A stretch of DNA of 38,035 bases, taken from Gemmatimonadota bacterium. Lineage in GTDB: Bacteria > Gemmatimonadota > Gemmatimonadetes > Gemmatimonadales > Gemmatimonadaceae. The notes under the pieces are model-generated. The model was not told the DNA's origin, did no database searches, and was given only the letters and a program-made list of their open reading frames with translations. Within the stretch, counting starts at the first letter, position 1. Each line of letters starts with the position of its first letter. The position numbers and the translations under genes are program-made. This document shows positions 2,410 through 23,471 of this stretch, one piece after another. The stretch covers positions 1-38,035 of the forward strand of contig JACQES010000342.1 in NCBI GenBank assembly GCA_016200495.1. Reading direction: 5' to 3'.

Positions 2410-2594
2410 GGCGCCCTCGCGACTCGGACGCGCCGCTGCCCGCGTGGCGCGGGATCGCGCCGTCCGCGCACCAGGCCTCGCCCGAGTGAAGCGGCGTTCG
2501 GTCGGCCGGCGTGCACGATCGGGTGGCCGAGCGCGCACCGAGGCGGTACTGTCCTGCGCAGCGTCGTCGGTTGGTGCCCCTCTCCGGAGCCCGC

Positions 2595-3353
2595 ATGGTC
2601 GGCACGTTCGCGCCGGGATCGCTCGACTGGTCGTCGTGGCGCCAGGCCACGTGCATGCCCGCGCACTGCTTCAACGAAGCCGTACGCGACGGTTGGATCC
2701 GCCAGCCCTCGAACACGTGGTCGTCGCTGGCGTTCGTCGTGGTCGCGGCCTTGCTCGTGCTCCGCTGGCCGCGCGGCGCGGATGGCATGCGCCCCAGCTT
2801 CGCGACGTCGGTGCCGCTGCGCACGACGCTCGCGTTCGCGCTCGTGGTGACGGGACTGGGCAGCGCCTTCTTCCACGCCTCGCTCACCTTCGTGGGGCAG
2901 ACGGCGGACGTGGCGGGGATGTACCTGATCGGCACCTTCCTCATCATCCATGCCCGCCTCGCCGACGCGCCGGGAACGGGCCGGCAGTTCGTGACCACCT
3001 TCGTCGCGGCGAACCTGGTGCTGCTCATCGCGCTCGTGCTCGTGCCCGAGCTCCGGCGACAGCTGTTCGCGCTCCTGATCGTGGTGGGGTTGGTGCTCGA
3101 GGTGCGCCGCGCGCGTGCGGCGAACCGGCGCGCCGCGACTCCCGACGCCGGATCGTCGCCGCGCGCGACGCTCGACCTCGGCAGGCTCGAGCGGAGCGGG
3201 ATCACGCTCGCGGTGGCGTTCGCGATCTGGGGGCTGGACATGCTGCACGTTGGCCCCTCGCCCACGGCGTGGGTGCAGGGACACGCGATCTGGCACGTGC
3301 TGGGCGCGGTGTCGGCGGGTCAGCTGGCGCGCTACCTCGAGGGGCGCGCGTAG
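2595..3353 (+). CDS. ceramidase-like (CREST superfamily) integral membrane protein
   Basis: A 252-residue polytopic membrane protein. It shows the pattern of alkaline ceramidase-like members of the CREST superfamily (metal-dependent membrane hydrolases): a Cys-containing N-terminal segment followed by RQPSNTWSSLAF, then GSAFFHASLTF with the Ser and His ligands, an Asp shortly after (QTADVAGMY), and a C-terminal HAIWH with the HxxxH metal site. About six or seven hydrophobic helices are visible. The frame is open from 2511, but ATG 2595 gives a start directly before the conserved region and is preferred. In eukaryotes these enzymes cleave ceramide; in bacteria the substrate is generally unknown. 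It follows the molybdenum hydroxylase by about 185 bases in the same direction, but nothing ties them functionally. Confidence 0.75.
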   Translation: MVGTFAPGSLDWSSWRQATCMPAHCFNEAVRDGWIRQPSNTWSSLAFVVVAALLVLRWPRGADGMRPSFATSVPLRTTLAFALVVTGLGSAFFHASLTFVGQTADVAGMYLIGTFLIIHARLADAPGTGRQFVTTFVAANLVLLIALVLVPELRRQLFALLIVVGLVLEVRRARAANRRAATPDAGSSPRATLDLGRLERSGITLAVAFAIWGLDMLHVGPSPTAWVQGHAIWHVLGAVSAGQLARYLEGRA

Positions 3354-3375: not shown

Positions 3376-5754
3376 TCAGAGTCGAGGCACGAGCACGAGC
3401 GTCACCTCGCGCACGACCCCCTGCCGGCGCACGCGCATGCGCACGGGACCGGGCCTGCGCAGACGCTCGCGCACGGCGCCGAGAGTGGTCGCGCCGGTCG
3501 GCGCCCCATCGAGCGCCTCGAGCGTGTCGCCGGTGGCGATTGCCGCGGCGTCGGCCGGCGTGCCCGGCGCGACCTCGTCCACCACCACCGCCGCATCGGG
3601 ACGCTCGCGCACCAGGAACAGGCCCGAGAGCTCCTCGCCAATGCCGGACCACGGCGCACGCGCGATGGGCGCGAGCCACATCGCGCCGCGCGGGTAGTCG
3701 AACGTGATGCAGTAGCCGCGGAGGAGCGAGAGGCCGAGCAGGCCGTCGTGGTAGCCGCCCGCGAGCACGCCCCCCTCGGAGAAGCCGGCGACGACACGCG
3801 TCCACGCGAGCGCGGCGCGCGATTCCGCGGTGAGCGCGAGCGCCGGCAAGCGCGCGTAGCGATACCGCGTGCGGCCGCCCATCCCCGCGCCCAGCGGTGC
3901 GACCAACGACGTCGCGCGCGGGACCACGACCCCGGTGCGCGCGAGGAACGACTCGCTCACGAGCAGGTTGTGCTTGGCACCCAGGTCCACGAGCAGCCGA
4001 GCGCTTCGCGCCGTGCCGGCCCAGTCGGTGAGCGTCGCGTGGGCGTACGGAATGCCGCCGGACACGGTGATCGGCACGCGCGTCGCCCCGACGGTGTCGG
4101 CGGTGGCATCGACCACGACCTCGCCGCGCGCGAAGTCGAGCGCCACGACGCGCCCGACGAAGAACTCCGAGCCGATGATGCCCGCCACGTGCCGCCCGCT
4201 CGAGGGACCGAGCAGCGAATCGAGCGGCGCGACGCGCACCTGCGACGGCGCGAACCGCCGGCTGCCGACGCGCAGCTGCTGCGCCGGCGCGCGACCGATC
4301 GCCACCTGGCCGCCCCCGGCACCGGTCGTGGATTGCGTGCGCTCGACCGTGATGCCCCATGCACGTGCCATGCCGACGTCGAGCAGCGTCGCGCCCGCAC
4401 CCGTGTCGAGGATGAACCAGGCGCTGTCGCCGGTCGCGCCGCGCACGGGGACGTACACCCGTTCGTCGTCCACGAGCATCGGGATGCGCGTCGGTGTGGC
4501 CCGGTCGTCGCGCGAGCGCACCGCGACCGACCGATGGGCCGCGTCGAGCATGGGATACGGCCGTGCCGGCGTCGCGGCCGTGCCGCGCCCCGGCGCCAGG
4601 TGCGTCGCGAGGAAGCGCAGGACCTCGCGCACCATGCGCGCGTGCATCGCGGATGGCGCGAGCGTGGCGCCGACGTCGCGCAGCTGCCGCTGGATCGTGA
4701 ACGGCGCGTCACTGAAGGAGAAGTGCCCCGTGCCGAGCACCTTGATGACGGAGGAGGGCTGGTCGCGGGAGAGCGCCTGGATGGCCGCCCAGCCGCTGTC
4801 GCGCGCGCGCCCCATGGCGGCGAACCGCGCGCGGGCCGCGCGCTCGGCGGAATCTCGCGGCGGCCGCTGCCCTCGATGGTCGGGCTCGCTCAGGAGCACG
4901 AGAAAGGGGCGACGCACCCCCTGCGTCCCGACGTCGCCGAAGACGTCGCCATCGAAGTCCACGCACGCGCGCATCAGCGGCACGGTGCGGCACGCCTCGA
5001 GCGCTGCGGCGCCACCGATCGAGTGCCCCACCACCGCGACGCGTGTCGTGTCCAGGCGGAGGCGGGGTGCCCGCGGGCCTGATGCGAACGAAGCGGCCGC
5101 CACGCGCACTGCGAGCGCCGCGTCCTCCGCCCAGTCGTGCACCACGCGCGCATACGGGCGATCGGGGTAGTGCAGCGAGTCGCTGCCCGGCGCGAGCACG
5201 CGCCCGTCCGCCCCGAACGCGAAGCCGCCGAGCGGGTGCTCGAGCGCGAGCACGACGTAGCCGTGGCTCGCGAGCGACTGCGCGAGCGCCGCGTAGTTGC
5301 CGCTCGCGACGCCGAGGCCGTGCGACAGGACGATGACCGGGCGCGGCGTCCGGGGTGACGCGGCGGCGGCATCCGTTGCCGCCGCGAGGCGCATCGCGCG
5401 CCACGGCGCCAGCTCGCCGGCCTCGAGGTCGAGGTACTGGTGCGCGAGCATCGAGTCCAGGAGCGCGGGCGGACCCGCGTAGGGCACGTCGCGCACGCCG
5501 CTGCCGGCCGCGGCCGGGTAGAACGCGCGCACGCCGATCCGGCGCGTCGGCACGTGGCGAGACGTGGCGCGCGTGGAATCGGTGACGAGGAACGCCACGG
5601 TGCCGACGGCGTGCGGGCCGTCGGGCGTGGGGAGCGGCAAGACGTGATTCCACGCGGGCGCCTGCGCGCCTGCCGTCCGCACGAGCGCCGAAGCGGTCAG
5701 GCACGCGGCGTGTGCAGCGAAGGCGAGCGTCAGGATCCGTCTCGCGATGGCCAT
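3376..5754 (-). CDS. secreted alpha/beta hydrolase fused to retropepsin-like and PDZ domains
   Basis: A 792-residue protein with a Sec signal (residues 1-30, ending AGA-QA). Residues about 35-390 form an alpha/beta hydrolase resembling platelet-activating-factor acetylhydrolase/dienelactone hydrolase types: SHGLG at 144-148 (oxyanion region), GHSIGG at 243-248 with nucleophile Ser245, and a late His at 344 (GTGHFSFSD). Residues about 425-700 look like a retropepsin-type aspartic protease: FILDTGAG with Asp450, and a second lobe-like LLVDLGAK with Asp590 and Leu in place of the usual Thr/Ser. Residues about 710-790 are a PDZ domain (VVDEVAPGTPADAAAIATGD). The start at 5754 has GGGAG eight bases upstream. 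The frame is open far upstream, but that part is antisense to the next gene. Aspartyl protease-PDZ proteins are known on their own; the hydrolase in front is unusual. The function is probably cell-envelope hydrolysis, inferred only. Confidence 0.85.
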   Translation of the reverse strand: MAIARRILTLAFAAHAACLTASALVRTAGAQAPAWNHVLPLPTPDGPHAVGTVAFLVTDSTRATSRHVPTRRIGVRAFYPAAAGSGVRDVPYAGPPALLDSMLAHQYLDLEAGELAPWRAMRLAAATDAAAASPRTPRPVIVLSHGLGVASGNYAALAQSLASHGYVVLALEHPLGGFAFGADGRVLAPGSDSLHYPDRPYARVVHDWAEDAALAVRVAAASFASGPRAPRLRLDTTRVAVVGHSIGGAAALEACRTVPLMRACVDFDGDVFGDVGTQGVRRPFLVLLSEPDHRGQRPPRDSAERAARARFAAMGRARDSGWAAIQALSRDQPSSVIKVLGTGHFSFSDAPFTIQRQLRDVGATLAPSAMHARMVREVLRFLATHLAPGRGTAATPARPYPMLDAAHRSVAVRSRDDRATPTRIPMLVDDERVYVPVRGATGDSAWFILDTGAGATLLDVGMARAWGITVERTQSTTGAGGGQVAIGRAPAQQLRVGSRRFAPSQVRVAPLDSLLGPSSGRHVAGIIGSEFFVGRVVALDFARGEVVVDATADTVGATRVPITVSGGIPYAHATLTDWAGTARSARLLVDLGAKHNLLVSESFLARTGVVVPRATSLVAPLGAGMGGRTRYRYARLPALALTAESRAALAWTRVVAGFSEGGVLAGGYHDGLLGLSLLRGYCITFDYPRGAMWLAPIARAPWSGIGEELSGLFLVRERPDAAVVVDEVAPGTPADAAAIATGDTLEALDGAPTGATTLGAVRERLRRPGPVRMRVRRQGVVREVTLVLVPRL

Positions 5755-5943
5755 CAGGCAGTCTCCCGGCAGCGGCGGTGGTCGTACGGGTGTCCCTGTC
5801 CGAATGATCGCGTGCTGCACGGGGAACGGGCTAGCACGTTGCTGCACGCGCTCCGGTGGGCCGCGCGAGGGTGGCCGACGGCCCCGCTGGGCGGTACTCT
5901 CTCCGGGACCGTGGTTCGCTCGTGTCCTTCCCGGGAGTGTCCC

Positions 5944-8900
5944 ATGTACCGCCACCTGAACGTCGCGCTGCGCCGTGCCGCGTTTGCCGCGACCCTCGTT
6001 CCCGCTGCGCTCGCCGCGCAGGCCACCGCCCCCAAGGTCGCCCCCGACGCGTACAAGGCGCTCCACTGGCGCACCCTGGGGCCCGAAGGCAACCGGTTCA
6101 GCGCCGCCGTGGGCATTCCGGGCGAGCCGTACACCTACTACGTGGGCGCCGCGTCGGGCGGCATCTGGAAGACGACCGATGGCGGCGTGCACTGGGAGAG
6201 CATCTTCGACGCGCACCCCGTGCAGTCCATCGGCGCGCTCGCGGTGGCGCGGTCCGACCGGAACGTCGTCTGGGCGGGCACCGGCGAGGCGCACATCCGG
6301 AGCCACATCTCGATCGGCCAGGGGATCTACAAGTCCACCGACGCCGGCAAGACGTGGACGCTGATGGGGCTCGAGAAGACGGGACGCATCGCGCGCGTCG
6401 TGGTGCACCCGTCGGACCCGAACATCGTCATGGCCTGCGCGCTCGGCACCGCCTACGGCCCGCAGCCCGACCGCGGCGTGTTCCGCACCACCGACGGCGG
6501 CGCCACGTGGACCAAGGTGCTCTTCGTGGACGAGAACACCGGGTGCGCCGACCTCGCCATGGACCCGAGCAACCCGCGCATCCTGTTCGCGGGGATGTGG
6601 ACCATCGAGATCCACACGTGGGGGCGCACGAGCGGTGGCCCGGGGAGCGGGCTCTTCCGGAGCACCGACGGCGGCGTGACGTGGACGCGCGTGAAGGGGA
6701 ACGGGCTGCCAGCCAAGAACGTCGGCAAGACGGTCGTCGCGATCGCGCCGAGCAACCCGCAGCGCGTGTACGTGATGATGGAGACGGGCGACGGCATCCC
6801 CAACCAGCAGACGGGCGAGCAGACGGAGAACGGGCAGGTGTGGCGGTCCGACGATGGCGGCGCGCACTGGGCCGTCGCCACGCGCGACAAGAACGCCATG
6901 GGGCGCGCGCACTATTACTCGCGCATCGCCGTGAGCCCCGCGGACGAGGACGAGACGTACTACCTCACCGCGTCGTACTCCAGGTCCATCGACGGCGGGC
7001 GCACGCTGGTGGTGCAGAACGGCGACGCCGCCCCCGGTGGCGATCACCACGACATCTGGATCGACCCGACCAACGCGAACCGGATGATCGTCGCGCACGA
7101 CCAGGGGCTCTCGATCTCGATCAACCGCGGCAAGACCTGGTTCCGCCAGCGCCTCAAGAACGCGCAGATCTACCACGTCACGGTGGACAACCTGATTCCG
7201 TACAACGTCTACGGGAACAAGCAGGACGAGCCGACCTATCGCGGCCCGAGCAACAGCCGCGTCTTCGGCGGGTTCCGCTCGGGCGGCATCTCGCGCGGCA
7301 TGTGGCACTCGGTGGGCGGCGGCGAGAGCGGCTGGGCGACGCCCGACCCGGTGGACCCGAACGTCATCTGGAGCACGGCCTCGGGGTCGGGGATGGTGGG
7401 CGGCATCGTGGTGCGCTTCGAGGAATCCACGCGCCAGTTCCGCAACGTCGAGGTGTGGCCCTACCAGTCGAACGGCCCGGCCAAGGACGTGAAGTACCGC
7501 TTCGTGTGGGACTCGCCGTTCCTGATCTCGCCGCACGACCACAACACGATCTACACCGGCAGCCAGCACGTGCACCGCTCGACCGACGGCGGGCAGAGCT
7601 GGCAGGTGATCAGCCCCGACCTGACGCTCAACGACCGCAGCAAGATGGGGAGCTCGGGCGGCCTCACCCCCGACAACATCGGCGTCGAGTACGCGGGCGT
7701 CGTGTATGGCATCGCCGAGTCGCCGATCACCAAGGGGCTCATCTGGGTCGGCACCAACGACGGCCAGGTGCAGCTCACGCGCGACAACGGCGCGACATGG
7801 ACCAACCTGACGAAGAACGTGCCCGGGCTCCCGGCGTGGGGCTCGGTGCGCTCGCTCGCGCCGTCGAAGTGGGACGCGGCGACGGCGTGGATCACGGTGG
7901 ACGCGCACCAGGAGAACAACCGCGACCCGTACGTCTACCGCACCACCGACTACGGCCGCACGTGGAAGCTGGTCGTGAACGGGATCCCGAGGAGCAACCT
8001 GAGCTACGCCAAGGTCATCATCGAGGACCCGGTGCGGCGCGGCATGCTCTACCTCGGCACCGAGAACGCGATCTACCTCTCGTACGACAACGGCGACACC
8101 TGGCAGTCGCTGCAGAACGACCTGCCGGCGGCCCCGGTGTCGGGGATCCAGGTGCAGGGGCACTTCAACGACCTCGTGATCAGCACCTACGGCCGCGGCT
8201 TCTGGGTGATGGACGACATCACCGCGCTGCAGCAGATGACGCCGGAGATCGCGAACCAGCCGGCGCACTTTTTCGCGCCGCGCGCCGCCTACCGCTTCCG
8301 CCCGATCACCGCGCCCTCGACCACGTACGATGATCCGACGACGGGCGATGACCCCGACTATGGCGCGCTGATTACGTACCACCTCAAGGCGGCCGCCACC
8401 GCGACGCCCAAGGTCACGATCAGCGACGCGAGTGGCACCGTGGTGCGCACGCTCGACGGCACCAACAAGCCGGGGATGAACCGCGTGGCGTGGGACCTGC
8501 GCGACACGCCGAGCTCGGAGCTCAAGCTGCTCACGAGCCCGATGTTCGCGCCGTACGTGGCGGTGGGCCCCGACGGCCGCGACGCCGGCACGCCGCGCGT
8601 CGCGATCCTCATGCCGCCGGGCAGGTACACGGTCAAGCTCACCGTCGACGGCACCGACTACACGCAGCCGCTCGAGGTGCGGAAGGATCCCAACTCGAGC
8701 GGCACCGAGGCGGAGATCGCCGAGCAGGTGAAGGTGATCGCCGCGATCCGGCGCGACATCGAGGCCGGGAACGCCGCCGTGCGACGCGCGGAGAGCGTGC
8801 GCCTGCAGCTCCAGTCGCTCATCCGCGTTGCCGGCGATGCGGCGGTGAGCGCGGACGCGAAGGCGCTCGACCAGAAGGTGACCGACGTCGAGATGAACCT

Positions 8901-9174
8901 CGTGGACCTGCGCCTCACCGGCACGGGGCAGGACGGCGTGCGGTTCGGCTCCAAGCTCCTCTCCAAGCTCGGCTACCTGAGCAACGGCGTGAACTCGGCC
9001 GACTTCAAGCCGACCAACCAGCACGTGGAGACGCAGACGCTCCTCCACACCGAGGTGGGCGACCAGGTGCGCGCGCTCGACCAGCTGCTCCAGAGGGAGC
9101 TCGGGCCCTTCAACGACAAGCTCAGGGCGAAGGGGCTGCCGACCATCTTCGACAAGCCGAGTCCGGTGCCGTGA
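5944..9174 (+). CDS. secreted Asp-box (BNR/VPS10-like) beta-propeller protein
   Basis: A 1076-residue exported protein. The start ATG at 5944 has GGGAG six bases upstream and is followed by a Sec signal (about residues 1-25, ending ALA-AQ). At least ten copies of the Asp-box signature (S/T-x-D-x-G-x-T/S-W) are spread over the first ~730 residues, for example KTTDGGVHW, RTTDGGATW, RSTDGGVTW, RSTDGGQSW, LTRDNGATW and LSYDNGDTW. This spacing builds the blades of one or two large beta-propellers of the sortilin/VPS10/sialidase-like fold. Around residues 800-900 a FlgD-type immunoglobulin-like segment is visible (GTVVRTLDG...PGMNRVAWDLRD). The C-terminal ~180 residues are helical. Proteins of this architecture and length are often annotated as glycosyl hydrolases, but no sialidase active site can be identified, so a binding or scaffolding role is equally likely. 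It is divergent from the hydrolase fusion, with 189 bases between the starts. Confidence 0.9.
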   Translation: MYRHLNVALRRAAFAATLVPAALAAQATAPKVAPDAYKALHWRTLGPEGNRFSAAVGIPGEPYTYYVGAASGGIWKTTDGGVHWESIFDAHPVQSIGALAVARSDRNVVWAGTGEAHIRSHISIGQGIYKSTDAGKTWTLMGLEKTGRIARVVVHPSDPNIVMACALGTAYGPQPDRGVFRTTDGGATWTKVLFVDENTGCADLAMDPSNPRILFAGMWTIEIHTWGRTSGGPGSGLFRSTDGGVTWTRVKGNGLPAKNVGKTVVAIAPSNPQRVYVMMETGDGIPNQQTGEQTENGQVWRSDDGGAHWAVATRDKNAMGRAHYYSRIAVSPADEDETYYLTASYSRSIDGGRTLVVQNGDAAPGGDHHDIWIDPTNANRMIVAHDQGLSISINRGKTWFRQRLKNAQIYHVTVDNLIPYNVYGNKQDEPTYRGPSNSRVFGGFRSGGISRGMWHSVGGGESGWATPDPVDPNVIWSTASGSGMVGGIVVRFEESTRQFRNVEVWPYQSNGPAKDVKYRFVWDSPFLISPHDHNTIYTGSQHVHRSTDGGQSWQVISPDLTLNDRSKMGSSGGLTPDNIGVEYAGVVYGIAESPITKGLIWVGTNDGQVQLTRDNGATWTNLTKNVPGLPAWGSVRSLAPSKWDAATAWITVDAHQENNRDPYVYRTTDYGRTWKLVVNGIPRSNLSYAKVIIEDPVRRGMLYLGTENAIYLSYDNGDTWQSLQNDLPAAPVSGIQVQGHFNDLVISTYGRGFWVMDDITALQQMTPEIANQPAHFFAPRAAYRFRPITAPSTTYDDPTTGDDPDYGALITYHLKAAATATPKVTISDASGTVVRTLDGTNKPGMNRVAWDLRDTPSSELKLLTSPMFAPYVAVGPDGRDAGTPRVAILMPPGRYTVKLTVDGTDYTQPLEVRKDPNSSGTEAEIAEQVKVIAAIRRDIEAGNAAVRRAESVRLQLQSLIRVAGDAAVSADAKALDQKVTDVEMNLVDLRLTGTGQDGVRFGSKLLSKLGYLSNGVNSADFKPTNQHVETQTLLHTEVGDQVRALDQLLQRELGPFNDKLRAKGLPTIFDKPSPVP

Positions 9175-9222
9175 GTTTCTCCTGAGAAAGTGAAAAGAAG
9201 GGCTTTCACCACCGAGCACAAC

Positions 9223-9429: not shown

Positions 9430-9470
9430 TGCGGTGCAAGCAGTTCCTTCGCCAAACGCGGGACCGGCGC

Positions 9471-10980
<1,510 letters not shown>

Positions 10981-11484
10981 GGATCGGAGCGGAGGAAGTG
11001 CGGAGCGGCCGGAATCCGGCCAGACGGCGAGGGGAGCAATCTAGCCTGCGCGTCTTGCGCTCCGAAGCGGTCCTCGGGCGCACCCCACAAAGCGAGAGGC
11101 ACCGGGCATTCCCCCGGTGCCTCCCCGTGCCGTCCACGGATGCGTATGTGTGGCGTCGTTGCCACGGGAGCTGCAGGCCCCCTCCATTCCGTGTCGGCAC
11201 CCGCTCGGATGGGCTCCTGAACCCGGTCCGACGGTGCGTTCCACTCTGCGGTGGAATGTTGCAACCGTGGATGCGCGCGGCGTCCTTCGCTTCGCCCCGT
11301 TGGTGCGGGGAACCGGGAGTGCGACCCGGCCCGTCGCGGACGTCGTGGAGGCACCTCCCACGAGCTGCACCCACACTATGTGAAACGCGGATCGCGCGCG
11401 CCAGAAGGGATTGGCCGACGGGCGCGTAGGACGCTCGCGCACACGACGGTCGGCGGCGTGCCCCGGCGTCGCGCGATCACCCGC
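10981..11484. other. intergenic region upstream of ettA without a convincing gene
   Basis: About 500 bases between the ettA start and the end of the next minus-strand gene. Open frames on both strands here have no recognisable protein features. The region holds several short hairpins, the clearest at 11096-11123. Others are TTCCAC/GTGGAA near 11235-11255 and CCCC/GGGG and CCGGG/CCCGG stems near 11295-11335. A structured leader for ettA or a small RNA cannot be excluded, but I see no known family. Confidence 0.4.
11096..11123 (-). terminator. strong GC hairpin downstream of the minus-strand gene at 11485
   Basis: An 11-base perfect stem (GAGGCACCGGG / CCCGGTGCCTC) closes a 6-base loop. There is no T-run on either side, so it is not a classic intrinsic terminator. 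It sits between the end of the minus-strand gene at 11485 and the ettA start at 10980, which fits a transcript end or RNA-stabilising hairpin. Confidence 0.4.
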
Positions 11485-12315
11485 TCAGTGGTGGTGCTCG
11501 CCCTCGCCGTAGATGCTCGCGAGGTCGCGGCCCGCGTACACGTTCGCGTGCACCATCCAGCCGAACAGGTTCGCGAACCACCGCCCGCGAACGGCGGTGC
11601 AGCCGGCCTCGTCGTCGATCATGCCGTCGGGTCCGAACAGCGGCTGCCCATCACGCCGCTCCGCCAGACGCGCCTCCTCGCCCTTGGGCGGCAGGCAGAG
11701 CTTCACGTGGCGATGCCAGCGCACGATCGAGAGCGGAAGCCGCTGGTCGAGCGCCGTTTCGCTCACGCGCCGCGGCGCCGTGTACATGGCCCCCACGAGC
11801 GTGAGGCGCCCATCGCCCTCGCGCACGTAGAGCAGCGACGTCGGCTGCGCGGGATCGAACCGGAACGCCTCCTTGAGCGCGGCGGCCCAGCGCGTGTAGT
11901 GCAGCACCTTCTGCCCCTTCACGTTGGGCGCGAACGGTCGGAACCCCTCGCGCAAGGCGAGCGCGGTGTCGCGGAAGCGCGCGATCGCGCCCCGAAGCGT
12001 GTCGGCCACGGCGAGCGCGCGCGCCGAGTCGGCGGCGGTGGGGATGCGCGCGCCAGTGAGCACGAGGTGCGCGCCGGGAGTGATGTTCACCCCCATGGCG
12101 GCCTGCACGGCCGCGCTCCCCTCGGGCTCCTGCCGTGTCGTGTCGGCCTGGCCGTGGGCGTGCTGCGCGGCCGCCACGCCTGTGCCGCACGCGAAGGCGA
12201 GCGCCGCGGTCCAGAGCCGCCACCACGCCCGGCGGCGCAGCAGGGCGGGATGCCCACCATGGCGGCGGTGCCAGGGGTGCAGCAGCCCCGCGCGGCGTCC
12301 CGGCGATGGATACAT
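11485..12315 (-). CDS. secreted protein of unknown function with histidine-rich tail
   Basis: A 276-residue protein I do not recognise. The start at 12315 is chosen because GGAGG lies 11 bases upstream and a signal-like segment follows: an Arg-rich stretch, then WTAALAFACGTGVAAAQ with a likely cleavage after AAA-Q near residue 50. The long basic N-terminus (about 35 residues) before the hydrophobic core is unusual, and a later start is possible. The mature part has no obvious repeats. It ends in a conserved-looking block with WHRHVKLCLPP, a Cys pair (VKLCLPP and EAGCTAV), FGWMVHANVYAG and the last residues GEGEHHH. Histidines also follow the signal (QHAHGQ). The His clusters suggest metal binding, but this is speculation. 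It is divergent from the thioredoxin gene, with about 150 bases between the starts. Confidence 0.7.
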   Translation of the reverse strand: MYPSPGRRAGLLHPWHRRHGGHPALLRRRAWWRLWTAALAFACGTGVAAAQHAHGQADTTRQEPEGSAAVQAAMGVNITPGAHLVLTGARIPTAADSARALAVADTLRGAIARFRDTALALREGFRPFAPNVKGQKVLHYTRWAAALKEAFRFDPAQPTSLLYVREGDGRLTLVGAMYTAPRRVSETALDQRLPLSIVRWHRHVKLCLPPKGEEARLAERRDGQPLFGPDGMIDDEAGCTAVRGRWFANLFGWMVHANVYAGRDLASIYGEGEHHH

Positions 12316-12447
12316 TCGAGATGGGTCCTCCGGCCCGGGCCGGGGTATGAGGAGCCGGGCGCAACGCGCGACTCCCGTTGTCCGTTGGACGCAGGATGGG
12401 GCGGCGCCGTTACGAAGCCCGGGCAACGCCCGTTCGAATCCGTCATT

Positions 12448-12453
12448 TATACT
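12448..12453 (+). promoter_or_regulatory. candidate -10 element for tlpA-like gene
   Basis: TATACT stands out in very GC-rich DNA, 13 bases before the ATG at 12467. Transcription from about 12460 would leave a leader of only a few bases, and no Shine-Dalgarno sequence is seen, so the mRNA may be leaderless. No good -35 match is visible. Confidence 0.35.
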
Positions 12454-12466
12454 CACCGTGATACCA

Positions 12467-12958
12467 ATGCGTTGGCTCCGCTCCGCGACCGCCCTCGTCG
12501 CGCTCGCCCTCGTCCCCCTGGCCGCCCGCGCGCAGGAGGGGCTCAAGGTCGGCACGCAGGCCCCCGCCGCCCCGCTCGAGACGCTCGACGGGAAGCCGGT
12601 CAACCTCTCGGCCTGGGTCGGCAAGGGCCCGGTGGTGATCGAGTTCTGGGCCACGTGGTGCGGCAACTGCCGCGCGCTCGCGCCGCAGCTCGCCGCCGCG
12701 CTCAAGCGCCACGAGGGGAAGATCAAGCTCGTGACCGTCGCCGTCTCGTTCAACGAGACGCCCGAGGTGGTGAAGAAGCACCTCGCCACGCACCCGCTCG
12801 CGGGCGAGGTCCTGTATGACCGGTCCGGCGAGGCCAGCGAGAAGTACGACGCGCCGGGCACGAGCTACGTCGTGATCCTCGACAAGGCGGGCAAGGTCGT
12901 GTACTCGGGCATGGGCGCCGACCAGAAGCTCGACGACGCGATCAAGAAGGCGCTGTGA
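12467..12958 (+). CDS. TlpA/ResA-like exported thioredoxin-fold protein
   Basis: A 163-residue protein with a Sec signal (residues 1-22, ending ARA-QE) and a thioredoxin-like fold of the TlpA/ResA type. The redox motif WCGNC is at 64-68, preceded by VVIEFWAT, and the cis-Pro loop is GTSYVVIL. Such periplasmic proteins reduce disulfides, typically for cytochrome c maturation or for envelope proteins. The Gly-Asn pair between the cysteines is less common than Gly-Pro or Glu-Pro and would change the redox potential. The start ATG is preceded by a likely -10 box almost at the start codon. The gene overlaps the next one by four bases (GTGA), so the two are co-expressed. Confidence 0.88.
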   Translation: MRWLRSATALVALALVPLAARAQEGLKVGTQAPAAPLETLDGKPVNLSAWVGKGPVVIEFWATWCGNCRALAPQLAAALKRHEGKIKLVTVAVSFNETPEVVKKHLATHPLAGEVLYDRSGEASEKYDAPGTSYVVILDKAGKVVYSGMGADQKLDDAIKKAL

Positions 12959-13476
12959 ACGTGCGCGTGCTGCCCACGCTCGCTCGGCGCGCGATCGTCG
13001 GCCTCGCGCTCGTGGCGGGCGCATCGCTCGCGGCCTGCGACGCGAAGGGCAAGGCCGGCGCGAGTGACGCCGGCGCCGGCGCGACGCGCCAGGCGCCGCC
13101 CAGCACGTACCAGTCGCTCACCGGCCACTTCGAGTTCGCCGTGCCGGCGGCGTGGAGCACCACGGTGCGCATCGTCGAGGAGCCGGGGGTGAGCGCGGCG
13201 GGCACCTGGCCCGGCGTCGCGCACGCGGTCCACTTCCTCTTCCAGCCGACCGCGCCCGGCGCCAAGTCGCAGAGCGTGCTGAGCGTGCTCGTGTACGACT
13301 CCGCCACCGTCGCCCGCACGCCGGGGGCCGGCGTCGAGGCGGCCCGCGGCGCCGCGCGCGTGTACCGGGTGGTGCTGCCCACGCGGAATCCGTTCCCGGC
13401 GGGGGCGGACCATGACGCGTTCCAGGCGCTCATGCCATCGCTCGACGCGGTGAAGGGCGCACTCCGTCCCACCTAG
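12955..13476 (+). CDS. putative lipoprotein of unknown function
   Basis: A 173-residue protein starting with GTG at 12955, overlapping the stop of the thioredoxin gene (GTGA). GTG 12961 is an alternative start. The N-terminus is a lipoprotein signal: basic start, hydrophobic core, and lipobox LAAC at about residues 26-29. A short low-complexity linker follows (KGKAGASDAGAGA). The globular part begins near residue 50 with YQSLTGHFEFAVPAAWSTTVRI, a pattern of small secreted domains in which a predicted beta sheet opens with a Phe-x-Val-Pro-x-x-Trp motif, similar to PsbP/Mog1-like folds. That fold assignment is a guess. Operon position suggests a link with the thioredoxin, perhaps as an envelope partner. 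Confidence 0.75.
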   Translation: MNVRVLPTLARRAIVGLALVAGASLAACDAKGKAGASDAGAGATRQAPPSTYQSLTGHFEFAVPAAWSTTVRIVEEPGVSAAGTWPGVAHAVHFLFQPTAPGAKSQSVLSVLVYDSATVARTPGAGVEAARGAARVYRVVLPTRNPFPAGADHDAFQALMPSLDAVKGALRPT

Positions 13477-13493
13477 CGGTTGAGCGGCGGCGG

Positions 13494-14756
13494 ATGGAGC
13501 GCGAGCGCCGCATCCTGCTGGCCGACGCCGACCAGTTCTTCGTGGCGGTGGCGCGCCTCGTGGATCCCGAGGGCGCGGGGCGCGCGGCCAGGCTGATCGT
13601 CGGCGGGCGCCCGGGCAGCCGCGGCGTCGTCTGTTCGGCGAGCTACGAGACGCGGGTGTTCGGCGTGCGGAGCGGGATGCCCATCGGCCGCGCGCTCCGC
13701 CTCTGCCCCGACGCGATGTGCATCCCGGTGCCGCGCGGCGCGTGCTCGAAGATGAGCCGGCAGATCCGCGCGGTGCTGGAGCAGTTCACGCCCATCGTGC
13801 GCGGCGCGAGCATCGACGAGTGGTACCTGGACCTCACCGGCACCGAGGCGCTCTACCATCACGAGCCGCTGGCCGACACCGCGGCGCGCATCCGCCAGGC
13901 CGTGAAGGACGCGACGGGCCTCTCGGTCTCGTTCGGCGGCGGCACCAACCGGTTGATCGCCAAGCTCGCCGTGGAGTTCGGCAAGCCGAAGCCGGGCACC
14001 GATCGCACGGGGGTGTTCATCGTGCCGCCGGGCGAGGAAGCGCGCTTCATGGCCGAGCGCGTGAACCTGGCCGACATTCCCGGGATCGGGCCGCGCTTCC
14101 AGCAGGCGCTCGCGGCGCGCGAGCTGGTGCGCGTGGCCGACCTGCTGCCGCACGACGAGACGACGCTCGCGCGCTGGTTCGGACCGCGCGCGGGCCCGTG
14201 GCTCTGGCGCCGCGCGCGCGGCATGGGCGACGCGACGGTGACGGTGCGCGAACCGGCCAAGAGAGTGAGCCGCGAGGACACCTTCTCGCGCGACCTGTCG
14301 AACGAAGCGGCGATCCGGCGCGAAGTCGCCGGCCTTGCGGCCAAGGTGGCGGGCGACCTGCGCGGCGATCGGTTGATGGCGCGTACGGTGACGGTGAAGC
14401 TCAAGTACACCGACTTCAGCATCCGCACGGCGAGCCGCACGCTCAAGGAGCCGATCGAGAGCGATCGGGCGGTGACGGACGTGGCGCTCGAGCTGCTGGC
14501 GACGGTGCGGAAGCGACGGCGCGCGCCGATTCGCCTCGCGGGCGTGGGGCTCTCGGGGCTGGCCGATGCCGCCGATCGCCAGCCGTCGTTGTTCGACGCG
14601 CCGGGCGTCGCGCCGGCGGCGCCGGGCGCGGTCGTGTCGCCGGAGGCGCCGGAATCGGCGCGCGATCGGGAGATCTCGCGCGCGCTCGACGCGATTCGTG
14701 GGAAGTTCGGGGACGCGGCGGTGAAGCGGGGGGCGGGACGCGATCCTGAGCTCTAG
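13494..14756 (+). CDS. dinB: Y-family DNA polymerase (Pol IV type)
   Basis: A 420-residue translesion polymerase. The palm carries the three acidic residues: Asp11 in LLADADQFF, and Asp108-Glu109 in ASIDEWYLDLT. Phe16 is in the steric-gate position that excludes ribonucleotides. GRPGSRGVVCSASYETR and GMPIGRAL form the finger motifs, and NLADIPGIGPRF (about 200-210) is the helix-hairpin-helix thumb. A QPSLF sequence in the C-terminal tail (RQPSLFD) matches the beta-clamp binding consensus. Two positions are unusual: Gln14 where Ala/Tyr is common after D-x-D, and Trp110 directly after SIDE, where Ala/Val is usual. These could alter lesion choice. The gene starts 17 bases after the lipoprotein stop, but its function is unrelated. 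No LexA box was recognised upstream. Confidence 0.9.
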   Translation: MERERRILLADADQFFVAVARLVDPEGAGRAARLIVGGRPGSRGVVCSASYETRVFGVRSGMPIGRALRLCPDAMCIPVPRGACSKMSRQIRAVLEQFTPIVRGASIDEWYLDLTGTEALYHHEPLADTAARIRQAVKDATGLSVSFGGGTNRLIAKLAVEFGKPKPGTDRTGVFIVPPGEEARFMAERVNLADIPGIGPRFQQALAARELVRVADLLPHDETTLARWFGPRAGPWLWRRARGMGDATVTVREPAKRVSREDTFSRDLSNEAAIRREVAGLAAKVAGDLRGDRLMARTVTVKLKYTDFSIRTASRTLKEPIESDRAVTDVALELLATVRKRRRAPIRLAGVGLSGLADAADRQPSLFDAPGVAPAAPGAVVSPEAPESARDREISRALDAIRGKFGDAAVKRGAGRDPEL

Positions 14757-16911: not shown

Positions 16912-17492
16912 GGCTGGACTCCAGGCTCGAGAGGGAGCGGCGGCGGTCGTGCCCGGCGAGATGCCGGTCGTTCGCAGTCCGCTGCGACCAGCCCTTGCGA
17001 ACCGCGCTCGGCTCGATCGCTGACATGAGAGTGTGAAGGACTGGCGCTCCTGGAAATACGCCGCGCGACGTAGGCGACCGACGTACTGGGTTCGCCTATT
17101 CGCATGCGCGTGAGCCGGACGCCGGACGGAACCCAGAGGGACCCGTATTTTCTTGACTATGCTCCATTAACAGATCAAATAAGCGACATTATCGATACAT
17201 TTATGCCCGTAATCTGTGGTTGACGCTTCTCGGGGGCTTCGGTGGGCATGTCGAACAGAGCCCGCGCTCCCACTCCTCCGGCGGGGTCGGACAACGAGTG
17301 TCCGGCGTGCCCGTGCGTGGTGCCCAAGGGACCGCAGATCCAAGCCGCGCCGCTTCGAACTCGCATTCCATTGATGGTCCCCACACCCTGGGCCAGCGCA
17401 TTCGGACAGGCTCCCCATCAAAGAAACCGCGCTGTCGGACGATACCTACAGAACATCCCCGCATTCCCGCGGGGAAAAATCAGGGTCTTCGC
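16912..17492. other. divergent intergenic region with AT-rich island
   Basis: About 580 bases separate the secreted-protein operon (minus) from the hybrid kinase (plus). Open frames across it look non-coding. Between 17145 and 17220 the composition drops sharply to AT-rich, with a possible -35 TTGACT at 17153-17158 and a -10-like TCAAAT at 17175-17180 (16-base spacer), and a perfect TATCGATA palindrome at 17190-17197. This is the likely promoter/operator zone for one or both genes. If so, the kinase transcript has a leader of about 300 bases. Confidence 0.45.
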
Positions 17493-20400
17493 ATGTCCGC
17501 CACCCCGCATCGCCAGACGCCGTCCACGCGACGCGTGACGCCGCCGAGCACCTTCGGCGGCGACACGGTGCTGGAGGCGTTGCGCGTGCGGACTGCCGTG
17601 CGCCACCTGCTGGCGCAGCGGTACCTGGACGATGTCGGGCCCGGCTTCACGGCCCACGTGCTCGTGGGCATCGTCGTCGCGACGGTCCTCGCGGGGAGCG
17701 TGCCCAACTGGGCGTACTGGACGTCGGTGTGCGGGCTCGCCGTCGCCCTCACCGCGCGCTACGCGCTGCTCCGCCTCGCCCGCCGGCAGGCCGACCCCGA
17801 CGTGATCACGCAGATCCTCTTCCGCGGCACCGTCATCACTTCCGCGGCGTGGGGCACGATCGGGCTCGTCGGCAGTCTCGGGCTCCCCAACGCACTGCTC
17901 GCGCTGCTGCTCCTCTCGATCGCCGGGCTGGTGGCGGGCGGGACGAACATTCTCGTGGCGCACCCGCGGAGCTACCTCGCCTGTGCCGGCCTGATGCTCG
18001 GCCCCGTCGCCATCGGCATCCCGCTCGGCGGGGTGGACAACCTGCGCCTGGGCTACCTCGCGCTGGTCGTCGCGTTCGCGCCCATGATGGTGATTCTCGT
18101 CCGCCGGGCGCACGCGCAACTGGTCGAGTCGCTTGAGGCGAGCGAACGCGTGGGGGTGGCCGAAGACCGGCTCCGCCGGTTCGTGGACGAGGCGAGCGAC
18201 GTGCTCTGGCGCATGGACTTCGACGGGCGCTGGACCTTCGTGAGCCGCGCGGCCGAGAACCTGTACAAGGCGCCCGCCGACAGCTTCGTGGGACATCCGT
18301 TCGTCGAGCGCACGCACCCCGACTACGTGCGCCGCGACCTCGGCGTGCTGATGCGCGTGCTGGCCGGCGAGGAAGTGATCGACCACGCGTCGGTGCACCT
18401 CGACGCGGACGGCAAGCAGGTCCACGTGTCGCTCTCCGCGCGCCTCCTGCGCGACCTCGACGGCACGATCCTCGGCGTGCAGGGCACGACGCGCGACGTG
18501 AGCGCGCGGGTGGCCCGCGAGCAGACGCTCGAGGACCTCGCCCGGCAGGGCTCGCTGCTCCGCTCGCTCCTCAACAGCACGGCCGACCGGATCTTCCACC
18601 TCGCCCCCGACGGCACGTACCGCGGCTGCAACGAGGCGTTCGCCGCCGGGGTGGGGCGCACGGAGGCGGAGGTGATCGGGCGCCGCGCCGCCGAGATCTT
18701 CGATCCGTCGCGCGCCGACGCCGCGTCGGCGCTCGACCAGCAGGCGTTCGCCACGCGCGTGCCGGTGCACTCGGAGGAGTGGGTCGAGATGCCCGACGGG
18801 CGGCGCGTCTTCTTCGAGACGGTGCGCACCGCGTACTTCAACGCGCAGGGCGAGCCGCTGGGCCTGGTCGGCATCGCGCGCGACCTGACGGCGCGCGAGG
18901 AGGCCGGCACGCGCATGAAGGAGCTGGTCGAGCGCTCGGAGACGGCGACGCGCATGAAGAGCGCGTTCCTCGCCAACATGTCGCACGAGATCCGCACGCC
19001 GATGAACGGCGTGCTCGGCATGGTGGAGCTGCTCCTCGACACCGACCTCAACATCGAGCAGCGCCGCCTGGCGGAGCTGTGCCAGACGTCGGCGGAGTCG
19101 CTGCTGGCGCTCCTCAACGACATCCTCGACCACAGCAAGATCGAGTCGGGGCACCTCGAACTCGAGCACGTGCCGTTCGACCTGCACAAGGTCGTGTCGG
19201 CGGCGGTGCGCCTGATGATGCCCAAGGCGGCCGAGCACGGGAACGAACTGGTGCTCGACATCCGACCCGACGTGCCCCCCAACGTGGTGGGCGACCCGGG
19301 CCGGCTGCGGCAGGTGATCACCAACCTCGTCAGCAACGCCACCAAGTTCACGCACGACGGCGAGGTGATCGTCACCGTGTCGGCCGAGGGGGAGCGCGAC
19401 GGGCGGGCGATCGTGAAGTTCGCCGTGCGCGACACCGGCATCGGCATCGCGCCCGAGGTGCAGGAGACGATCTTCGACGAGTTCACGCAGGCCGACTCCT
19501 CCATCACGCGCAAGTACGGCGGCACGGGGCTCGGGCTCGCGATCTCGCGCCGGCTCACCGCGATCATGGGCGGCGCGCTCGAGCTCGAGAGCACGCTCGG
19601 CGTGGGCTCGACCTTCTACTTCGTGCTGCCGATGCAGCGCGACCTCGCCGTGCGCGTGGACGAGGGGCCGTCGCACGCGTCGCTGCGCGGCACGCGCTGC
19701 CTCGTCGTGGACGACTCGCCGGCGTCGCGCGCGCTGGTGCGCGACTTCCTCGACGGCGCCGGGGCGCGCGTCGAGGAGGCCGGCACGATCGGCGACGCCC
19801 TCGCGCTGCTGCGCGACGCGGCCGAGCAGGGCGCGCCGTTCCAGTTCGTGTCGCTCGACCTCATCATGCCCGACGTCTCGGGGTTCGAGCTGGCGCGCTC
19901 GATGGCGCGCGACCCGCAGCTCCAGGGGACGCGGGTGCTGGTGCTCACGTCGTCGGGCAAGCCCGGCGACTCGAAGCAGGCCCGCGAGCTCGGGATCGGC
20001 GCCTACCTCACCAAGCCGGTGTCGCGGTTCGAGTACCTGTGGACGGCGTCGGCGCTGCTCGCGCGCCGCAGCATGCCCGGGGTGCCGCTCCGCTCGATCA
20101 TCACCCGCTACGAGGTGCGCGAGGCGCTGCGCCCGCTCAAGATCCTGCTGGCCGAGGACGGCGAGGTGAACCGCCAGGTGGCGTCGTCGATGCTGCAGAA
20201 GCGCGGCCACCACGTCACGATGGTGGTCAACGGCGCGCTCGCGGTCGAGGCGGTGCGCACGGGCCAGTTCGACCTCGTGCTCATGGACGTGCAGATGCCC
20301 GAGCTCGACGGCGTGCAGGCGACGCGCAAGATCCGCGCGGACGCGCGCTTCGCGAAGCTCCCGATCCTCGCCGTCACCGCGCACGCGTTCCAGGAGGAGC

Positions 20401-21080
20401 GCGAGCGGTGCGCGGCCGCCGGGATGAACGGCTTCCTCACCAAGCCGTTCAAGGCCCACGAGCTCTTCTCCGCCATCGAGGGCTGGGTGGACACGAGCAC
20501 GATCGGCGACGTGGTCGAGCGCGCGAACGCGCAACGCGTGCCGGGGCCGCGCGCCCGCGACGCGGAGGCCGTCGAGGCGTCGACCGTGGACGCGGCGACG
20601 GAGGCCGTGCCCGCCCACCCCGCGTTCCGGGGGGCGTCCGTGGACGCGGAGCCCGCCCGCGCGGAGGCGCCGCCGGCCTCCGTGGTGCGGTTGACGCCCC
20701 ACGGCATGCCGGCCGTGGCGGCGGCCGAGCCCGCGGTGGACATCGCGGGATTCCGCCGGATGATGCGCGAGGCGGGGATCGAGTTCATCGTCGAGCAGAC
20801 GATCGACACCTACCTGCGCGAGGCGCCGCAGCGGATGACCGGCCTGCTGGCGGCCATGGACGCGAACGACTCGCGCGCCATCGCCGCGCACGCGCACGCG
20901 CTCAAGGGCTCGTCGGGGAGCCTGCAGGCGCACCGCCTGGCGCAGCTCTGCGCCGACATCGAGGTCGCGGGCAAGGCCGGCGACCTGGGCGCCGCGACGG
21001 CGCTGCGCGCGACGGTCGAGGGCGAGTGGGCGCGCGTGGCCGCGCAGCTGCGGGACGTCCGGCAGGTGCGCGCCGCGTAG
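17493..21080 (+). CDS. membrane hybrid sensor histidine kinase, PAS-PAS-HisKA-HATPase-REC-REC-HPt
   Basis: A 1195-residue phosphorelay kinase. The ATG at 17493 is preferred over upstream in-frame starts because the earlier residues look non-coding. Domains in order: five or six membrane helices (about 52-205), PAS 1 (228-340), PAS 2 (352-468), HisKA with [10 protein letters not shown] and His498, HATPase_c with N-box Asn611/Asn615, DTGIG at 647-651 and GGTGLGL at 676-682, receiver 1 (acidic pair 740-741, phospho-site Asp789, Lys841), receiver 2 (Asp889, phospho-site Asp932, Thr962, Lys984), an Ala/Pro/Glu-rich linker (about 1005-1080), and an HPt domain with HALKGSSG and His1135. All steps of a His-Asp-His relay are thus on one chain, so the final target should be an external receiver. 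The next gene carries a receiver fused to a secretion ATPase, which makes it the obvious partner. The membrane part is not a family I can name with confidence. Confidence 0.92.
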
Positions 21081-21203
21081 GGCATCGGGCACCACCGCGC
21101 GGATTTCTTTGCGCGCGACAGCGCGCCGCTGCCTCAGGTGGCGCCGTGGGATGACCGATACTCAGGCCAGTCGCCTCCCTCCACCCACCTCGCGCAGTCC
21201 GTC

Positions 21204-23471
21204 GTGTCCACCATCATCCGTCCCACCCACTGGATCGTCGGCGTCGCGCGGCGGGCCGACTTTCTCGGCGCCGCGGCGCTCGAGACGCCGGTCGGCACCA
21301 CGTTGGCCGAAGCGTGGCGGAGCGTGATGGAGGGGTGCGCGGTGGACGGCGACACGCTGGCGGCGCGCGTCGCCGCGCACTTCCGCGTCTCGGTGGCCGA
21401 CCTGGCGCGCGCGGAGCCGGCCGCACGGAAGCTCATTCCCGAGAGCCTGGTGCGGAAGCATTTCATCTTCCCGATCTCGGCCGACGACCGGTCGATCACG
21501 GTCGCCACGGCCGACCCGACCGACATGCAGATGGAGCAGGACGTCGCGTTCGCGGCGGGTCGCACCGTCCGGTGCCAGGTGGCGGCGCCGGTGGCCATCC
21601 ACAACATGATCGAGGCGACCTATTCGCCCGAGCAGACGATCGAGCAGATGCTGCGCGGCGTCGAGGACGCCGGGAACGGACTGCGGGTGGTGGACGAGGA
21701 GGAGCTCGCGGCGGAGAACCAGGTCTCCGCGGACGAGGCGCATTCGGGACCGGTCGTGCAACTCGTGAACCTGGTGCTGCAGCGCGCGATCGAGCGGAAC
21801 ACCAGCGACATCCACCTGCAGCCCGCGGGCACGCAGGGGGTGGTCCGCTACCGCATCGATGGCGTCCTCGTGAACTCGGGGCAGATGCCGCTGCCGGCGC
21901 TCAACCGCGTGATCTCGCGGATCAAGGTCATGGCGAAGCTCGACATCGCCGACCGGTTGCGCCCGCAGGACGGTCGCGCGCGCGTGATCGTGCACGGGCG
22001 GACCTACGACCTCCGGATCTCGACGATCCCCGCGCGCGGCGCGGAGAAGTGCGTGATCCGCCTGCTGGACACGCAACGCGCGGTGCCGTTGTCACAGGTG
22101 GGTCTCCTCGAACCGGAGCTGGTGCGCGTCAAGCGGCTCCTCGCGCATCGCGACGGCATCGTCGTCGTGACGGGGCCGACGGGTTCGGGCAAGACCACCA
22201 CGCTCTACGCCGCCCTGCAGGAGATCCACGGGCCCGACATCAACATCATGACGGTCGAGGACCCGATCGAGTTCGAGCTCCCCGGCGTCACCCAGATCCA
22301 GGTCGAGACGAAGCAGGGGGTCACCTTCGCGTCCGCCCTCCGGGCGATCCTGCGCCAGGACCCGGACGTCATCTTCGTCGGCGAGATCCGCGACGCCGAG
22401 ACGGCCGCGATGGCCGCGCAAGCGGCGCTCACGGGCCACCTGGTGCTGGCCACGCTGCACACGAACGATGCCCCGGGGGCGATTCGCCGCCTCGCCGACC
22501 TCGGCCTCGATCCGGCGACGATCGCCTCCACCCTCCGCGGCGCGGTGGCCCAGCGACTGGTGCGCCGCGTGAACGGGGCCGTGAGCGAGCCCATCGGCCC
22601 CGACGACGTGCTCACCGACGACGAGGCACGCCTCGCGCGGGTGTTCAACGTGCGCCCGATCGTGCGCGTCGCGAGCGGCGAAGGCGCCCGGGAGGCCGGC
22701 TATCGCGGGCGGATGCCGCTCGCGCAGGTCTTCGAGGTCACGCCGGAGATTGCCGACCTGATCGCGAACGGCGCGACGATCGGCGCGATCGAGGCCGCGG
22801 CCGTGACACATGGCATGCGCTCGCTGCGCGCCTCGGGGGTGGATCGCGTGGCGACGGGCGAGACGACGCTGCAGGAGCTCGAGCGCGTGCTCGGCGACGG
22901 AGAGGAGCGTGCGCCGGAGGCTGCGGCGGACGCCCGTCCCGCGTCGGCCGCGAGCGCGCCCGGCGAGGCCCCCGCCGCGCGACCGTCGGTCGCGCTGACG
23001 CCCAGCACCGATCCCGCGATCACGCGGGGCACGATCGCGCTCGCCGCCGATCGCGTGCTCGCGGCGCTCGGCGAGGACACGCGGCACGATGCGTCCCCGC
23101 ACGTGCTCGTGGTGGACGACGACGGCGCGAACCGGATGATCGCGCGCGCGCTCCTCATGTCGGAGAAGTTCGAGGTCACCGAGGCGACGGACGGCGCCGA
23201 GGCGCTGGCGCTGCTGCGCACGGGCGCGATGTTCGACCTCGTGGTGCTCGACCTCGACATGCCCAAGGTGAACGGGCGCGAGGTGCTGCATGCGCTGCGC
23301 GCCGACGTGGCGAGCGCGGGGATCCCGACGATCATCCTCACGGGGACGAGCGACGCCGAGCTCGAGTCGAGCCTGCTCGACGAGGGGGCCGACGACTACA
23401 TCCGCAAGCCGTTCGACCCGCGCCGCTTCCTCGGGCGCGTCAAGGCGACGCTGCGGCGGTCGCGGGGCTGA
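21204..23471 (+). CDS. GspE/PilB-type secretion or pilus ATPase fused to a receiver domain
   Basis: About 755 residues from GTG 21204; GTG 21138 is an alternative in-frame start, and neither has a clear ribosome-binding site. Residues about 40-150 are the GspE N1E/MshEN-like domain. Residues about 180-560 are the type II secretion/type IV pilus hexameric ATPase: Walker A GPTGSGKTT (324-332), Asp box VEDPIE (351-356), Walker B DPDVIFVGEIRD (386-397) and His box HLVLATLHTND (412-422). The four-cysteine zinc motif normally found after the His box in GspE/PilB is absent; no Cys occurs from about 284 on. After an Ala/Pro linker (565-630), residues 632-752 form a receiver: acidic residues 638-640, phospho-site Asp683, Thr713, Lys735. 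The ATPase should power pseudopilin or pilin assembly in the inner membrane. The receiver makes it a direct output of a two-component system. It follows the HPt-containing kinase by 123 bases. Confidence 0.9.
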   Translation: MSTIIRPTHWIVGVARRADFLGAAALETPVGTTLAEAWRSVMEGCAVDGDTLAARVAAHFRVSVADLARAEPAARKLIPESLVRKHFIFPISADDRSITVATADPTDMQMEQDVAFAAGRTVRCQVAAPVAIHNMIEATYSPEQTIEQMLRGVEDAGNGLRVVDEEELAAENQVSADEAHSGPVVQLVNLVLQRAIERNTSDIHLQPAGTQGVVRYRIDGVLVNSGQMPLPALNRVISRIKVMAKLDIADRLRPQDGRARVIVHGRTYDLRISTIPARGAEKCVIRLLDTQRAVPLSQVGLLEPELVRVKRLLAHRDGIVVVTGPTGSGKTTTLYAALQEIHGPDINIMTVEDPIEFELPGVTQIQVETKQGVTFASALRAILRQDPDVIFVGEIRDAETAAMAAQAALTGHLVLATLHTNDAPGAIRRLADLGLDPATIASTLRGAVAQRLVRRVNGAVSEPIGPDDVLTDDEARLARVFNVRPIVRVASGEGAREAGYRGRMPLAQVFEVTPEIADLIANGATIGAIEAAAVTHGMRSLRASGVDRVATGETTLQELERVLGDGEERAPEAAADARPASAASAPGEAPAARPSVALTPSTDPAITRGTIALAADRVLAALGEDTRHDASPHVLVVDDDGANRMIARALLMSEKFEVTEATDGAEALALLRTGAMFDLVVLDLDMPKVNGREVLHALRADVASAGIPTIILTGTSDAELESSLLDEGADDYIRKPFDPRRFLGRVKATLRRSRG

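Follow-up and report, generated by a model that had tools for sequence, protein, structure and literature searches.

A PAF-acetylhydrolase-like hydrolase joined in frame to a two-lobed aspartic protease-like region and a probable PDZ domain in one Gemmatimonadaceae genome

Bacterial proteins that combine an aspartyl protease domain (PF13650) with a PDZ domain were listed in 2019 among the families awaiting functional characterisation (PMC6411480), and the main text of that paper has no word beginning with "hydrolase." Described relatives of the protease part take several forms: RloA of Pseudomonas is an exported retropepsin-like protease that forms a homodimer (PMC12239564, whose main text does not mention a PDZ domain), while bilobal homologues of pepsin exist in bacteria as intracellular proteins (PMC2761423). 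PecA and its mycobacterial relative PE_PGRS16 (PDB 4EHC) are exported proteases with a single-chain aspartic protease fold, DTG and DSG motifs, and a PE domain plus linker for type VII secretion; PecA acts both on itself and on a lipase (LipY) that is a separate protein, and each of its two mapped sites in the LipY linker contains a pair of adjacent small residues, Gly or Ala (PMC6819658). The gene described here has the same protease-PDZ order as the family listed in 2019, but differs from these stand-alone proteins in that a hydrolase precedes the protease, which has no signal peptide of its own.

The window, a stretch of 38,035 nucleotides, is one complete contig (C68) of a genome of 4.14 Mb (431 contigs, 85.65% complete, 2.18% contaminated). 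The fusion is a single unbroken open frame of 792 codons (Table 1); the initial annotation had its coordinates, residue numbers and length right, and the strand, which it did not give, is minus. The contig contains no N, the frame has no internal stop, and third-position GC stays at 0.90-0.93 from residue 361 to residue 440 (40-codon windows), so that a merged reading frame over residues 390-430, which had been raised as a concern, is not indicated, and we reject a frameshift there.

Table 1. Features of the fusion gene in window coordinates; residue numbers are those of the encoded protein.
Feature	Position	Strand	Evidence
Whole fusion gene, 792 aa + stop	3376..5754	-	one open frame, ATG to TGA; third-position GC high throughout
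Signal peptide, residues 1-31, hydrophobic core 7-25, AQA before proposed cut	5662..5754	-	hydropathy
PAF-AH-type alpha/beta hydrolase, residues 40-388	4591..5637	-	PF03403, PDB 5yae, conserved triad
Hydrolase nucleophile Ser245 (GHSIGG)	5020-5022	-	motif and alignment
Hydrolase triad Asp268	4951-4953	-	alignment
Hydrolase triad His344	4723-4725	-	alignment
Junction/linker, residues 389-421, no internal signal peptide	4492..4590	-	ends and starts of stand-alone homologues, low hydropathy
Aspartic protease lobe 1 (predicted), residues 422-552	4099..4491	-	PF13650; invariant D, G; AlphaFold2 model
Lobe 1 Asp450 in DTGAG	4405-4407	-	motif; GIIG at residues 525-528
Aspartic protease lobe 2 (predicted), residues 553-700	3655..4098	-	second PF13650 stretch; invariant D, G; pepsin-like match
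Lobe 2 Asp590 in DLGAK	3985-3987	-	motif; GLLG at residues 671-674
PDZ domain (probable), residues 711-790	3385..3624	-	PDZ_6 below cut-off; relatives above; DegQ PDZ profile match

The core of the proposed signal peptide is the most hydrophobic 19-residue stretch of the whole protein; its cleavage site was placed by eye. The hydrolase matches PAF-AH_p_II (PF03403) at 3.6e-17 (62.4 bits, against a membership cut-off of 20), and its triad is conserved among the aligned hydrolases, the window included (Ser245 in 12 of 12, Asp268 and His344 each in 11 of 12). Its best solved relative is the esterase 5yae (1.6e-16, over residues 130-308), followed by PAF-acetylhydrolases; these proteins (PF03403, 5yae, PAF-AH 3d59) share with it a fold family, the nucleophile motif and the triad, but none of the hydrolase relatives examined is joined to a protease. 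Members of the PAF-AH family hydrolyse phospholipids with short or oxidised sn-2 acyl chains. One relative of the hydrolase half (G239:C137, loci L039/L010) shares 50% identity through residue 173, and beyond that point its frame stops matching; this could be due either to a broken gene or to an assembly error.

The C-terminal half matches Asp_protease_2 (PF13650) in two stretches (1.1e-11, 45.7 bits, cut-off 24.3), and each lobe carries the D-x-G of the clan AA dyad (D450/G452 and D590/G592) together with a hydrophobic-hydrophobic-Gly motif (in GIIG and GLLG, respectively). Both Asp and both D-x-G Gly are invariant in all 22 aligned protease halves, the window included (both Asp also in 15 of 15 in another alignment that includes it), with the GxxG Gly likewise retained in both lobes. 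In the canonical clan AA motif, D[T/S]G, a Thr or Ser follows each catalytic Asp. Lobe 1 reads DTG and lobe 2 reads DLG, which leaves the second Asp without the hydroxyl that normally stands next to it; in the 22 aligned sequences that position is Leu in nine, Thr in eight, Val in three, Met in one and Ser in one, giving Thr or Ser in only nine. Membership of PF13650 is independent of this residue, and protease activity of the C-terminal half is likely but, given the DLG, not assured. A search of NCBIfam returned weak matches only, every one under its cut-off, among them the clan AA DTGA family TIGR02281 (13.1 bits, cut-off 57.95). The border between the lobes was set by eye. The PDZ assignment is made from sequence: PDZ_6 matches the fusion at 3.5e-5 (23.9 bits, under the cut-off of 27), the protease-PDZ relatives scanned give 26-46 bits (45-46 in the C-terminal half's closest relative, G071), and a profile of the half matches the PDZ domains of DegQ in the PDB. 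The initial annotation had described a secreted protein composed of a PAF-acetylhydrolase-like hydrolase with a complete nucleophile motif, a two-lobed aspartyl protease-like region and a C-terminal PDZ domain. This description stands: the nucleophile motif and the two protease Asp lie where it had placed them, the PDZ domain is likely in view of close relatives above the cut-off, and the signal peptide predicts export.

We folded the C-terminal half (residues 413-792) with AlphaFold2 together with 14 relatives, obtaining a model with a mean pLDDT of 88.3 and a pTM of 0.87 (residues 413-418 fell below pLDDT 50); a single-sequence model of the full-length fusion (pLDDT 33.8) was uninformative. 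The top Foldseek match was 9iy9, a putative endopeptidase of Bacteroides fragilis (3.6e-13), followed by tick cathepsin D, the mycobacterial Rv0977 domain (4EHC, the third hit), renin, tethered HIV protease and plasmepsins. On alignment with VIA-align, 9iy9 gave a Z of 22.5 (rmsd 3.5, 261 residues aligned) and renins and plasmepsins a Z of about 17, values that, with the pLDDT, place the model in the pepsin/retropepsin fold. The matches span model residues 1-291, and since this covers both lobes, the prediction for this half is an aspartic protease of pepsin shape made of a single chain, not a homodimer of one-lobed chains. The two-lobed protease is also found in the 9iy9 profile match (4e-12), but identity is 15%, the match begins at residue 153 of the 9iy9 chain, after a different N-terminal region, and the PDZ domain lies outside it; a literature search found nothing on 9iy9.

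The junction falls where separate proteins begin and end. Stand-alone hydrolases stop at the start of the linker, and most of 33 protease-half sequences, examined by eye, have a signal peptide or lipobox of their own shortly before the match; the exceptions are the window, L006 (with a PD40 propeller), and L067 and L098 (TPR/DUF3887), while L112 is truncated by a contig end. The linker of the fusion holds runs of small residues (GTAATPA and DAAH), and hydropathy reveals no hydrophobic stretch in it. Together with the steady third-position GC, this fits an in-frame fusion in which the second signal peptide was dropped, and on these two grounds we read the gene as real and private to one lineage.

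The fusion was found in one genome only. In the phylum (395 genomes, best two candidates scored in each) and in the order (288 genomes, best three), the window's genome alone spans both halves; there was no other fusion among 179 genomes of the family, where the halves were queried apart and about ten candidates scored per genome. Within the genus (three genomes, all candidates scored), the two genus-mates have neither half and give matches at the level of the PDZ domain only. A junction query of 295 genomes of the class found no second hydrolase-protease fusion; weak junction matches in G350, G192, G1102, G024 and G068 were inspected and are not such fusions. Outside the phylum, 34 of 347 Acidobacteriota genomes (best two scored) and nine of 294 Oxalobacteraceae genomes (best three scored) match one half or the other, and none spans both. 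The hydrolase half is absent from the stretches around all 57 GTDB r220 loci that carry the protease half, and seven further genomes behind named loci contain no second fusion. Plasmid records were matched in 15 cases, and none of the ten listed has a place that reaches 80% coverage of the query; a first scan of genome contigs with the whole fusion protein as sole query gave no match. These samples overlap one another, and because the larger ones scored the best two or three candidates per genome, a fusion whose halves are only weakly similar may have escaped them. Our literature search (listings and the starts of abstracts) found no paper on a hydrolase-protease-PDZ fusion. Absence from other genomes had been named at the outset as something that would refute the observation, and it holds within the genomes searched; it weakens the claim of a conserved bifunctional enzyme, but does not show an artefact.

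Of the 179 family genomes, 12 have the protease half, 21 the hydrolase half and two have both, against 1.4 by chance; the two are the window's genome and G156, where the halves lie on separate contigs. The stand-alone genes thus co-occur no more than chance in the family. The initial annotation had gone on from its domains to suggest coupled cleavage of esters and peptides, or a protease that regulates the hydrolase; either is possible, but this co-occurrence lends the suggestion no support. Among 207 loci, none but the window's own, mutually overlapping ones (L001, L057 and L070) contain both halves, and with the halves adjacent in no sampled relative and so seldom in one genome, we reject an origin from conserved neighbouring genes.

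The contig itself is at home in the genus, as the nucleotide matches of its neighbouring stretches to genus-mates show: the divergent neighbour, a sortilin/BNR-repeat gene (5872-9177), is 84% identical in G123, and stretches within 9463-14746 match G123 or G081 at 73-91%. Upstream of the sortilin/BNR gene, G123 has an arginase-like gene (named by eye) in place of the fusion, which lies within DNA not common to G123 at that place. On the other side, a gene for a ceramidase-family membrane protein (2511-3353, plus strand; PF05875, 6.2e-15) ends 22 bases from the fusion on the opposite strand and occurs, among the loci compared, only in the window's own. Elsewhere on the contig, a large hybrid histidine kinase with an Hpt domain (17220-21077) directly precedes a type II/IV secretion ATPase (21138-23468, plus strand; T2SSE 4e-114, MshEN) that bears a C-terminal response-regulator receiver domain. 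An RHS-repeat protein (35855-37846, minus strand) has a third-position GC of 0.68, clearly below that of the contig's other long frames, and was possibly acquired recently.

Aspartyl protease-PDZ proteins do exist alone, as had been stated, with stand-alone relatives in Gemmatimonadota, Acidobacteriota, Massilia and Sphingomicrobium; the nearest named relatives (L118, L119, L122 and L123) are metagenome-derived Gemmatimonadetes or Gemmatimonadaceae bacteria. In a tree of 32 protease halves, the window falls in a set of seven with 100/100 support, together with G071, G414, G026, G021, Massilia arenosa and one Sphingomicrobium genome, and there is no supported branching order within the set. A sister relation to the PD40-fused half of G071, the nearest by identity (41%), was considered and set aside, that branch being without support. 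The protease-PDZ genes of M. arenosa (L120) and Sphingomicrobium (L121) are Pseudomonadota members of a supported set that contains Gemmatimonadota, which suggests lateral transfer of the gene.

The module is also joined to other domains. One G071 gene (G071:C4; L118, 1344-3740) encodes a PD40 propeller, a two-lobed protease and a PDZ domain behind one signal peptide, and a Zixiibacteriota gene (L130, 1418-3457) has an uncharacterised N-terminal domain before its protease and PDZ. The latter domain, the only one scanned among those of L130, L201, L204, L206 and L207, has no Pfam match; we take it and its relatives to be LolA-like. Six further loci were checked, five of which match the protease half, and in four of these five (L201, L204, L206 and L207; one from Acidobacteriota, three from Oxalobacteraceae) an N-terminal region related to that of L130 (BLAST 1.8e-17 to 1.6e-8) is fused to protease-PDZ. 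In others, TPR or DUF3887 regions accompany the protease module, with no Pfam PDZ match in the two scanned. The partners across several phyla are thus a PD40 propeller, the presumably LolA-like domain, TPR/DUF3887 regions and a lipase-like hydrolase; since the protease(-PDZ) module recurs behind other N-terminal domains that are exported, it is an existing plug-in to which the hydrolase adds a new partner.

The reading we hold probable is that the fusion is real, is private to one lineage and unites two secreted proteins that otherwise occur singly in Gemmatimonadota and beyond; the two enzymes would most likely act as independent tethered modules. A contig at home in the genus and the other fusions of the protease module also speak for it. 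The one N-terminal signal peptide would export the whole protein; outside the cytoplasm, the Ser245-Asp268-His344 triad of the hydrolase would, to judge from its motifs, cleave an ester or acyl substrate, the protease would use Asp450 and Asp590 to cut peptides in the cleft that its two lobes form, as motif and fold suggest, and the PDZ domain could, like others of its family, recruit the C-termini of substrates. That the sole carrier is one fragmented assembly speaks against this reading, as do the chance-level co-occurrence of the stand-alone genes, the DLG of lobe 2 and the PDZ match under its cut-off. An assembly chimera, or a local stop loss by which two neighbouring genes ran together without consequence, would also explain a gene seen in a single genome (431 contigs, 85.65% complete) whose genus-mates have neither half. 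We give such an accident only a small chance, given a contig without N, third-position GC that runs unbroken over the junction, a join at domain ends from which the second signal peptide has been removed, and two genes that are near each other in no sampled relative, coming together in the window's own loci alone. An equally small chance goes to a C-terminal half whose aspartic-protease fold has degenerated, is no longer catalytic and serves for binding, so that together with the PDZ domain it anchors or targets the hydrolase: the DLG of lobe 2 would suit it, as would the apparently non-enzymatic domains to which the module is joined elsewhere, but the invariance of both Asp and both motif Gly (22 of 22) and the GxxG Gly kept in both lobes would not be expected of a fold that had ceased to catalyse.

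In the tethered-enzyme reading, a plausible extra step is that the protease would cut the linker after export and so separate the halves. Taken as the point of the fusion, it gives a self-releasing pair, a cis version of PecA in which the aspartic protease would cut the Ala/Gly/Pro-rich linker and free the hydrolase; this seems to us unlikely, if less so than an accident of assembly. PecA does cleave itself and LipY, the latter in its linker at paired small residues (PMC6819658), its relative 4EHC is the third hit to our model, and the linker of the fusion has its small-residue runs and a low pLDDT at its end. Against this, linkers rich in Ala are frequent where genomic GC is high and so are weak evidence, the fusion has no PE domain (Pfam matches with E up to 1 include no PE family), loss of cleavage left the lipase activity of LipY unchanged (PMC6819658), and no second fusion was found in which conservation of a cleavage site would show. 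Least probable of all, in our estimate, is the wider proposal in which the protease(-PDZ) module, as a secreted plug-in of general use, would cut its own linker once exported, thereby setting the time and place of its partner's release.

Seen in one genome and built from two ordinary modules, the fusion is otherwise of modest significance. Its hydrolase, measurable with ordinary ester substrates, would provide a convenient read-out of cutting in cis and of recognition by this class of protease. The more general lead is that unrelated exported domains are repeatedly found joined to the protease(-PDZ) module: if self-maturation of the plug-in were true, the module would be a bacterial device analogous to the proteases of retroviral polyproteins, and the gene described here would be, among the fusions seen, the one with an enzyme as its released cargo.
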